NCBI GenBank assembly: GCA_001600055.1
Contig: BCIV01000005.1
Span: forward strand, 124,001-188,000
From: Filobasidium wieringae
Taxonomy: Eukaryota > Basidiomycota > Tremellomycetes > Filobasidiales > Filobasidiaceae
Length of the DNA: 64,000 nucleotides
Direction: 5' to 3'
This document shows, in pieces, positions 49,864 to 54,709 of the stretch (positions are counted from its first letter, which is position 1; each line of letters starts with the position of its first letter). The position numbers were made by a program, and so were the translations under genes. Under the pieces are notes generated by a model. That model made no database searches, had not been told where the DNA came from, and was given only the letters and a program-made list of their open reading frames with translations.

Positions 49864-50811
49864 TCAGGCTTCTTCCTCGGGACGGATGAGCGCTAGTTTC
49901 GCCTCTATCTCTTGTTCTAGCCCTACGCCTACCAACCCTTGCGTCGTCTCAGTCGTTTTCTGAGCGATACCTTTATGACCAGGATATTCGACAGCGTCAG
50001 GTATAAAGCTTCTCCCAGTTCAGGTAAGACACTTACTAGACACGAACCCCGCCCAAGCTTGGAGGCATCCTTCCGTTTCAGTCTGACTGGATTCGAAGCT
50101 TGTATTGACGGATTTCTCCAAGGTTTCCATCAGCTCCTATGAGACAGGGGAAAACGGGAGCTGAGCTTGAGATGGTTCAGTCCAGGCGACGAAAGGGCTT
50201 ACAGTTTTCTGGGTGATCAGTTGATCTAGTTCTTGATGCAATGCCTGAATAGATTTGTCGCTTTCACTGATCGAGGTGGACAGTTCTGCGTATGTATTTT
50301 CACTAGAATTGAGATTTGGTATAAGCAAAGGACGGCGTTCTTTTCTCTGCGTGTGATCTATACGTTTCGGAAATGTGAGTCTTTATGAGGTGATTGTGTT
50401 TTTTGACCTGCGAACAACCGTCGTACATGAGCAAATGAAATACAAAGAGGAAACAATGTTGTTTCGCAACTTACAATGGCAGCAGACTGAGAGGCGTATT
50501 CCTTGATCAGTCTCTCGACGCTAGCTTTCTTTCTCTTCTCGTATTCACCTATAGCGTGAGATCAATTCCATTAAGCAGATGCTTAAGATCGACTTCGTGC
50601 TATTGTATATGCTTGTACTCACGTCTTTCCTCCCTGACCAAATCTTTCATGATCTGAATCCTTCATCCTTGGCTCATCAGTCCCATCCGGACAACACCGG
50701 GCGAGCAATTACTTACTGCTCGCTATCGACCTCTGAACCTTGAGTAAGCTCTGGTGGTGAGTTGGAAGCGGCCTGAATAGCACTAGCTCGAGCGTTCCTG
50801 GGTTTAGTCAT
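49864..50811 (-). CDS. Coiled-coil protein of unknown function, about 225 aa
   Basis: Not recognised. ATG at 50811 in a CCACC-ATG-A context; exons follow at about 50590, 50330, 50140 and 49990, and stop TGA at 49866-49864. Residues 20-150 are helical with heptads (MKDLVREERREYEKRKKAS, SISESDKSIQALHQELDQL, ELMETLEKSVNTSFES). A short acidic C-terminus follows (LEQEIEAKLALIRPEEEA). The last intron needs a GTTCGT donor and is about 40 nt. Size and architecture resemble small kinetochore or tethering-complex subunits, but nothing specific supports that. It is divergent from SCD6. Confidence 0.6.
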
Positions 50812-51886
50812 GGTGGACTCGATCGAGGCTAGTGTTTGGGAAGTGATGAAGTAGCGGACTGATTCCTCGGCAGGTCGTAATACAGAACGTCTTGGCACTA
50901 TAGTTTCACCGGTGTTGGCGAGCTAGCTTGATTGAAAGTAGAGATGGTGAACCTCAATGCTATTATGGATGTTATAGCAGCTAGCAATTGATTGAATGAT
51001 ACAAAGGACACAAATCGCGACCAACGACGAAGAGATCGAAAAGAGCGGAATATCAAACCCGAACAGAGCTCGGACATGTCGGACACAAATCCACTTGAAA
51101 CGCGCGTCATCTGAGCCGGAAATTAGACGGCCGACAGACAAGAGGCAAGAGGCAAGAGGTCAGAAGGCAAGACGAGACACAATGACCTGAACACGAATGG
51201 CTAAGATCGTTATGTAGGGTTTGAAAAACCCTGTATTTGCGCTCTATGAGTATGCCTCTTATCAGTCTGCCAGTCCGATACATTTTGTGCTAGGACTAGT
51301 ACTTGTCGCCTTGTCGCCTTGTTTCCGGTTGACGAGTATACTGATTCAGTAACTGATAATGAACTCGTTATATCGTTATATTACAGGTACTAATGGCAAT
51401 ATTGCGCCCTATACGTCACTAAATTCCAAAAGAATGTGACATGGCTTTGGCCGTCATTCCTTTTGGTCGACATGTCACATGTCCTGTTGATTTATCTTTT
51501 CTTGTTTGTAACGCATAGATAGCTGGATGAATGGAATGGTTGCATGCATCGCTTCAAGCTGTCAAGCAGATCATAAGTTGGAAGGTTTAATTGATCTCGC
51601 TTGTGCTAGAAGGTGAACCAACCAGAATCGTCATCCATGCGCGTGAGAAAGCGCGCTTTCATACTCGTTTTCCTAGGTCGCTGGCAGTTTTCATCTCAAC
51701 GACTTCAAAGTCAAGATTCATATAAATTCTCATAACAGTTTATTCTCCTCCTAGTTCTGCACCACTTACACTCCCCCTCTGCTCTCTTCTTTTCTTCGTT
51801 GGGGATCCGGCCTCTTTTGGTCCGTGTAAACCTATACCACCCGTTTCTTTTATCGTCACCTGGTCCCGCTTCGATCGTCTTGCACC
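50812..51886. promoter_or_regulatory. Divergent intergenic region, coiled-coil gene and SCD6
   Basis: 1.07 kb. It includes short direct repeats (GAGGCAA units near 51145, CCTTGTCG units near 51305) and a pyrimidine-rich leader directly before ATG 51887. ORFs here are small and unsupported. Confidence 0.45.
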
Positions 51887-53675
51887 ATGTCGACCGAACA
51901 ATTCATAGGGTACGCCCAGGCCTGGATGACTCATTCTATCAGGAGTACGTGAGCTGATCTAATTCTTGTTCTATGTAGGATGAAGATCTCCCTCACCTCG
52001 AGGGCTCAGCTGAGGTATCGCGGAACGGTTCATTCCATCGACAGTTCCCAAGGTACCATGACTTTGAAAGAAGTTACCAGCATGGGTACGGAAGATCGAC
52101 AGGTGGCGCAATATATTCCTCCAATGCTTGACCGGGTTCATCCTGTCGTTGTCTTTACGTGAGTTGTCCAAGTTGATAGTGATGCGCTAAAACCGACACT
52201 GAAACGACCTGATACATCAATTCAGTGTCAACGATATCCTTGATCTGGCTATCGAACCTGTTGCACCTCCCGCTTCTCAAACTCTTCCTGATGACCCAGC
52301 AATCCGCCAAAGTGTGAGTCTGACGCCTTGTTCTATCTGATCCCTCGGTCCTTGTCTCCATCGCGTCTTCCTCCTTCCCTTTCTAAACGATGCCGAAGCC
52401 TCGACCAAGACTTCCTATGATGAAGTATTTTTCGGATGTAAAGTGCCTTCGGGCCAGTGTCCGAGAGCGCAAAACCCATGTGGATGCTTCCGTTGCCTTC
52501 CTTCTGAGAAGGTCTTGGTCAAGGTTTTTAATCGAGTCGACAAGGGAATGTGGAAAGAAGCGATGCTATCTCGTCCAACACGATGAACTATCAGATGGCT
52601 GATGTGCTATCCTCGACTCTCCCAATAGACACAGACCGCTAACGGACTCGCTGCCGCGCCTTCAGTTCCATCATCCGTCCCGGTTCCAGCGGCTTACGCT
52701 CCAAGTCCGCAACCACGATCGCAACCTCCTTTTCAAGAACCTCGAGGTTATCCTCCTCCCGGTCCTCACTCGCAACAACCTCGCCAGCCTGTAGCTCAGC
52801 AGCAGTTCCAGCGAGGACCACCTCCCCATACTTCCGGTGCTCAACCCTCCGCACCTCCTCTTAGTACGATTGAAAAGATCGAGCAGACCGTAGGGGAGAT
52901 CAGGAGTCAGGCTGGACCTTCTCATGCACAGGGTCAGGGGCATTTCGCGAATCGAGGCGGATTCAGGGGAAGGGTTTCTGTCGCCGGACCTGGACGAGGG
53001 TTCTACCAGAACCAACCTGGATCTGAGTATGGACACGGACCTGGACCTGGGTCCAGAGGACCTCCTGGTGGACATGGACCTGTACCTCCTTCCATCCCTG
53101 ACGAGGAGTACGATTTCGAGCAGATGAACAGGAGGTTCGAGGAGATGAGGACGAAGGAATCTAGGAGTTCTGTTTCGCAACAAGGAGGACCGGAGGTTGT
53201 TCTGTCGTCCAGCGCTGCGGGAAAGAAGCCGGTTCAACAGGACGGGAGCGATGATGACGATGACGATGAGGAAGAAGTGGTTATGAGCCGTAGCGCAAAC
53301 CCAGGACGAGAGACTGAGAATGCTCAAGTGGAACCCGTTTACAACAAGTCGAAGTCTTTCTTCGACTCCGTATTCTCCGATGTCTCTCGGGATCCTACCG
53401 CTTCCAATTCGGGAGGACGAGGAGGCCGTGGAGGTTTCAACAATGGACCAGGATTCAATGGCCAGGTCGGTGGAGGAGGTGGAGGGTTCAAGTGGCAGCG
53501 TAGCCAGGAGAGGATGACAAATTTGAACACCTTCGGCGAGGCTGGAGGGAACACCAATTACGGAAACGGACGAGGACGAGGGGGTTTCAACAGGGGTCGA
53601 GGTGGAGCTGGAAGAGGAGGGTTCAGAGGGGGAGCACATCCCCCACCTCCTTCGGGATATGCCGGACCGATGTAA
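51887..53675 (+). CDS. SCD6: SCD6/LSM14-type P-body translational repressor
   Basis: Exons 51887-51909, 51979-52158, about 52227-52315 and about 52629-53675 (stop TAA). The LSm domain reads FIGMKISLTSRAQLRYRGTVH, GTMTLKEVTSMGTEDR and IPPMLDRVHPVVVFT, then DPAIRQS. After a Pro/Gln-rich stretch come the FDF motif (EEYDFEQMNRRFEEM), the FFD box (YNKSKSFFDSVFSD), the TFG box (ERMTNLNTFGE) and an RGG-rich tail. Scd6/LSM14/RAP55 binds eIF4G through RGG, and Dhh1/Edc3 partners through FDF/FFD, repressing translation and promoting decapping. The third intron is about 310 nt, several times the window average, and carries a C/D snoRNA. Confidence 0.93.
52404..52520 (+). ncRNA. Intronic box C/D snoRNA
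   Basis: Inside the long SCD6 intron. C box ATGATGA at 52418-52424 and D box CTGA at 52504-52507. The flanks form a strong terminal stem: GACCAAGACTTC (52404-52415) pairs with GAAG-G-TCTTGGTC (52508-52520), 12 bp with one bulged G. A D'-like CCGA lies near 52461 and a C'-like TGGATG near 52481. The guide before the D box (52492-52503, GTTGCCTTCCTT) pairs 12 nt, one of them G-U, with the 18S rRNA segment AAGGAAGGCAGC as I recall it. The fifth-nucleotide rule selects the second A of GGAAGG. By size and structure this is an intron-encoded 2'-O-methylation guide; the target assignment is inference. Confidence 0.8.
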
Positions 53676-54709
53676 ACGACAAGTCACAGAATCACAACAT
53701 ACCATACCGAACGGGAAAAGAACAAGGGAAACAAGAAATTTGTATCGTCAACCAACCAATCAAAGTCAAGAACATAATGTGGAAAGCGGGAAATGGAGGT
53801 GGAATTGTACGACCGTTTACGACCAATTCTCTATCATGTCTATTGCATACGAATTTTCGAAGTCTGGGAGAATGACCTACTTGCCATTGGTCGTTCTAGA
53901 GCTTCAGTCTCTGTCTCGTCGCCTCACTCCACAGGCATAGAGATCAGAGAGTATGGACGCCTGGCGCCATCGTTCGATCGTCTTTGCGTGATCGCTCTTC
54001 GAGGCGGTGTTGAGAAGACCAATAGCGGTTGCTATCTCAACACAGATTGAGCAGACATCTTGGAACCAAGATACAGTGGTGATAGCATCAACAGTTACGG
54101 ATAATATTAGAAAGCCTCTTCCTTCTCAATGTTGGTGATTGGTGATGATGCTTTCACCGAGGCAGGGAAGTCTGTCTCTCAAAACCACTAGAATGACCTT
54201 CCAACACAAAAGGATGTACAAGAACAGTTTTAAATGCATCCCTCTCAATCTTCCTCTATATTTGAGGACTTCCAGATCGAAATCGCATAGGTGAAGGTGA
54301 TAGTTTGAACTGTGTCGAGCGATAATCAGATTGCCGGCAACATTTGACATCTCCAGTGCAGTAAGTCCAACCTGTGGAAACACAGACAGGGTCGATTTGT
54401 TGTCAAATACTTCGGATCCGCAGGATACTGAAGTTCAAAGTGGTTTGGACTGGCTGCTTACAGAACCACACAGCTGCCTGTAGGTCACCCCAAGACAACA
54501 CAAAGAGCGGATCAATTACAACCAGATCTCGCTTGAGAAAAGACAGAAGAAAGCCTTAAAACAAGTCGGTGCGATCGATCGATGGATATCATGTCCGTTC
54601 TTGTGTTCTAGGAGTCACAATTGCCAAATGCCCTTCTTTGATATCGTGTATGTAATGCTTGAATCTTGCTAACTATCGAATAAGTAACCGCGATTTATCG
54701 ATCTCTATT
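53676..54709. other. Convergent intergenic region with weak ORFs
   Basis: About 1 kb between SCD6 (plus) and YVH1 (minus). A minus-strand frame at 54383-54126 (VGLTALEMSNVAGNLIIA) and a piece upstream (DLVVIDPLFVLSWGDLQAAVW, ending before GTAAGC near 54462) could be two exons of a small gene, but no start codon fits. The rest is 3'UTR-like. Confidence 0.4.

Follow-up and report, generated by a model that had tools for sequence, protein, structure and literature searches.

An snR52-like box C/D snoRNA, very probably a true orthologue, in an intron of an LSM14/SCD6-like gene of Filobasidium wieringae

Introduction

Does the long third intron of an LSM14/SCD6-like gene in Filobasidium wieringae encode a box C/D small nucleolar RNA (snoRNA), and, if so, which nucleotide of the 18S ribosomal RNA (rRNA) would it address? 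The gene lies in a 64-kb stretch of contig BCIV01000005.1 (positions 124,001 to 188,000, hereafter the window; coordinates below are window positions unless another record is named). A reading of this stretch made from the letters alone (the sequence-only reading) had proposed such a snoRNA and suggested that the 18S methylation it directs may be displaced or not yet reported. We examined the family, structure, target and host of this element.

Family assignment

A cmscan search against Rfam 15 revealed a full-length covariance match on the plus strand to RF00335 (snoZ13_snr52). The match covers positions 1-101 of the 101-position model and scores 80.4 bits (E 1.3e-15), well over the gathering threshold of 47, and it was the sole Rfam match above gathering when the whole window was scanned. 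Because of this covariance match, the feature lies far beyond chance; the guide by itself is suggestive, and the family match decides. As judged from sequence and structure, 52407-52515 is almost certainly an ordinary snR52 orthologue, an intronic methylation-guide snoRNA of an already known kind. The elements assigned to it are as follows.

52407..52515, plus strand, snoRNA match to RF00335 (cmscan)
52417..52423, plus strand, C box ATGATGA (sequence; aligned to the family consensus AUGAUGA)
52504..52507, plus strand, D box CTGA (sequence; aligned to the family consensus CUGA)
52397..52413, plus strand, 5' arm of the terminal and outer stem (duplex fold; inner part also in the minimum-energy fold)
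52510..52526, plus strand, 3' arm of the terminal and outer stem (duplex fold; inner part also in the minimum-energy fold)
52433..52492, plus strand, internal stem of the Rfam consensus, CGGA 52433-52436 with UCCG 52489-52492 (Rfam structure line, minimum-energy fold)
52478..52484, plus strand, putative degenerate C' box ATGTGGA (inferred from position and family consensus)
52492..52503, plus strand, D guide facing 18S 416-427, with the fifth nucleotide from box D opposite A420 (pairing to the 18S of record L014, described below)

A single RF00335 copy was found in the F. wieringae genome, which is to be read as at least one, the genome copy counts for this family being lower bounds. A 20-nucleotide (nt) core of the snoRNA had no match in viral_contigs or in genome_contigs, neither of which is a fungal collection.

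Boxes and stems

A C box, a D box and a terminal stem, the hallmarks of a box C/D snoRNA, are all present at 52404-52520. The sequence-only reading had noted both boxes, which we find at 52417-52423 and 52504-52507, and a 12-bp terminal stem with one bulge. The minimum-energy fold of 52404-52520 comes close to that stem, with 12 pairs and one 1x1 interruption: an outer helix joins 52404-52413 to 52510-52519, and two further pairs join 52415-52416 to 52507-52508, the innermost taking up a base of the D box. When the outer flanks were included, the duplex fold gave 11 bp, a mismatch and a further 5 bp between the arms 52397-52413 and 52510-52526. A duplex energy as low as the -23.3 kcal/mol of this stem came up once when the two 20-nt arms were shuffled 2000 times, and never at 1200 control positions distributed over the plus strand of the window. 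In the interior, a local hairpin (52430-52438 with 52458-52466), seen when 52430-52468 was folded alone, competes for the CGGA of the internal stem.

The D guide and its 18S target

Because searches of the F. wieringae assembly gave no 18S, the 18S of another organism was used to place the target, namely the 1800-nt eukaryotic 18S inside the prokaryote-filed record L014. We take this 18S to be identical to that of Saccharomyces cerevisiae. As the sequence-only reading had it, the 12-nt guide before the D box (52492-52503) pairs with a conserved 18S segment, AAGGAAGGCAGC, with one G-U pair. On the 1800-nt reference the duplex spans 18S 416-427; the guide nucleotide that stands fifth from box D is opposite A420, which sits 16 nt 5' of A436. 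We take A436 to be the guide site of SNORD16/snR87.

The proposed target did not survive this placement. The predicted A had been put four nt 3' of A436, and a shifted or unreported methylation near A436 had been suggested on this basis; nothing besides the 18S numbering used in that reading points to such a target. The fifth nucleotide from box D falls exactly on A420, which PMC9418376 gives, with 25S-U2921, as a site guided by yeast snR52, and A436 lies a further 16 nt in the 3' direction. That this snoRNA has a displaced or unreported target near A436 is thus rejected as barely conceivable. Membership in the SNORD16/snR87 family likewise finds no backing: the target is A420 and not A436, and RF00138 (SNORD16) was absent from the seven matches reported by cmscan for 50500-54500 up to E 5, a separate snR87 model not having been looked up. 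A genome search with RF00138 gave no match in F. wieringae, but as the control genomes gave none either, this negative carries no information. Taken together, the interpretation first offered for this element is partly supported. An snR52 orthologue at this position would direct methylation of the A420 equivalent of 18S through its D guide, so far as the pairing can predict.

Some observations weigh against this assignment. The 18S of the F. wieringae assembly was found neither with an exact 22-nt pattern nor with a 310-nt 18S piece, and the guide pairing alone was equalled or bettered by 6 of 2000 shuffled guides (12 bp or more). Across the two strands of the window there are 636 CTGA sites, of which 2 reached a 12-bp pairing, one of them the snoRNA's own; the guide pairing taken alone is only moderately unusual.

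The record that supplied the reference, L014, is filed as Planomonospora, and its eukaryotic 18S is evidently contamination. An exact 37-nt eukaryotic 18S segment occurs in seven prokaryote-filed records (L008-L014), where it is probably contamination; the Rfam family SSU_rRNA_eukarya matched in all three of the seven that were scanned. The rRNA patterns had no match in viral_contigs. A search of the genome with the 5.8S family returned nothing but a fragment inside another region. A 97-base 5.8S rRNA-like piece (62.4 bits, Rfam) lies at 1517-1613 of L003 (G000:C10, within 798969-799115), outside any ribosomal DNA (rDNA) unit, as no other family exceeded gathering in the surrounding 18.9 kb. 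Open frames of 85 amino acids (aa) on the plus strand and 129 aa on the minus strand extend into this piece from either side; possibly it derives from rDNA that was inserted into a gene.

The second guide of yeast snR52

According to PMC11121408, the snR52 of S. cerevisiae is in addition a guide for 25S-Um2921, a site for which Spb1 serves as a back-up. No guide for 25S-U2921 was found in the F. wieringae snoRNA: U2921 lay outside all eight best helices between the snoRNA and a 70-nt 25S A-loop fragment. Elsewhere in the genome, a U2921-type guide pattern allowing up to two mismatches gave two matches, against five for the reversed control pattern, and because the control gave more we regard the matches as chance. 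Um2921 could be made here by Spb1, or by a guide too diverged for the search pattern.

The missing guide might suggest a decayed, non-functional snR52 copy left behind in the intron. Such decay is very improbable, considering the 80.4-bit match over model positions 1-101, the intact boxes, the strong terminal stem and the finding of no other RF00335 copy in the genome. Moreover, the Neurospora crassa entry, as tabulated in PMC2780460, has the 18S site alone, with no 25S-U2921 guide listed; because of this, the absence of a U2921 guide is not special. Membership in the snoZ13/snR52 family as a whole does not depend on having the second guide.

The conserved centre

In the Rfam consensus of RF00335, CGGAUGUAAA and AGCGCAAAA are in capitals and aaccaUGUgGAu is mixed. 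Part of this conserved centre is the internal stem of Rfam (CGGA 52433-52436 with UCCG 52489-52492), part is a likely degenerate C' box, and no methylation target was found for it. A 6-mer in the centre, GGAUGU (52434-52439), is complementary to ACAUCC at 18S 410-415, abutting the guide duplex, and a second, AUGUGG (52478-52483), which had no control of its own, fits the overlapping 18S 408-413. The stretch 18S 410-427 corresponds to 2459-2476 of L014.

The snR52 centre might contact 18S on the 5' side of the guide duplex as well, and aid methylation or folding by the extra pairing. The position of the first 6-mer within CGGAUGUAAA, written in capitals in the consensus, and its partner abutting the guide duplex speak for this idea, which we nevertheless consider unlikely. 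When the centre was shuffled, 356 of 1000 versions could form at least 6 bp in the 20 nt flanking the guide site on each side, and 574 of 1000 did so when the flanks were widened to 40 nt; the exact abutting 6-mer, which was picked post hoc, arose in 432 of 20000. Against the whole 18S, the centre has no Watson-Crick match longer than 7 bp, a length also attained by 199 of 200 shuffles, and the GGA of the 6-mer also belongs to the internal stem of Rfam. The 6-nt match adjoining the guide duplex stands close to what chance would give; it is a lead and not a result.

PMC2780460 tabulates Cm411 of N. crassa as the U14 site. C414, presumably its yeast equivalent, lies in the 18S stretch facing the 6-mer, which also argues against an extra contact. 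That table places the U14 (Cm411) and snR52-homologue (Am417) sites six nucleotides apart, so the two guide duplexes would overlap and the small nucleolar ribonucleoproteins should bind in turn. A broader proposal is that, outside Saccharomyces, the fungal snR52 centre (CGGAUGUAAA ... AGCGCAAAACCCAUGUGGAU) serves as a second rRNA contact and not as a methylation guide, pairing with 18S 408-415 beside the guide duplex and thereby ordering the binding of snR52 and U14 on one 18S strand. We hold this to be quite doubtful; if true, it would explain why the stretch is retained with no methylation target found for it.

The host gene

The host gene model was predicted from splice signals and reading frame only.

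51887..53675, plus strand, LSM14/SCD6-like host gene with four exons, 51887-51909, 51979-52158, 52226-52313 and 52629-53675 (spliced translation, Pfam)
52314..52628, plus strand, host intron 3, GTGAGT...CAATAG, 315 nt (hand splicing and translation)

The spliced translation is 445 aa long and matches Pfam LSM14 (E 3.6e-21), while the FDF domain, at 24.1 bits, falls slightly below its cut-off of 26.1. When the N-terminal 96 aa of the host protein served as a query, four relatives came up, two of which carry a precomputed LSM14 Pfam domain. The snoRNA-bearing third intron, at 315 nt, is far longer than introns 1 and 2 (69 and 67 nt); together with the LSM14 match, this bears out the earlier description of a snoRNA in a long (about 310 nt) SCD6/LSM14 intron. 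No placement of snR52 within an LSM14/SCD6 intron appeared in the titles and abstract openings of the literature searched, the gene name itself not being among the search terms.

Comparison with known systems

The value of this locus lies mainly in annotation and correction, since the methylation site predicted for it is no new one but the usual A420. The element resembles snoZ13/snR52 (RF00335) in sequence and structure over the full model, its D-guide sequence equals the consensus, and the 18S target is the A420 equivalent in both; the F. wieringae copy differs from the model by insertions of 1, 2 and 5 nt. It shares the D-guide core UGCCUUCCUUCUGA with snoU83B (RF00593, human U83), but the score of 27.9 bits is under the gathering threshold of 35 for that family and the centre aligns poorly. 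Compared with S. cerevisiae snR52, which is described in the cited texts as having a 25S-U2921 guide, the F. wieringae copy yielded none. The N. crassa snoRNA CD42, itself intronic, is tabled in PMC2780460 with a D-guided 18S-Am417 beside snR52 and U83, and as far as that table goes, the intronic location is common to CD42 and the F. wieringae snoRNA.
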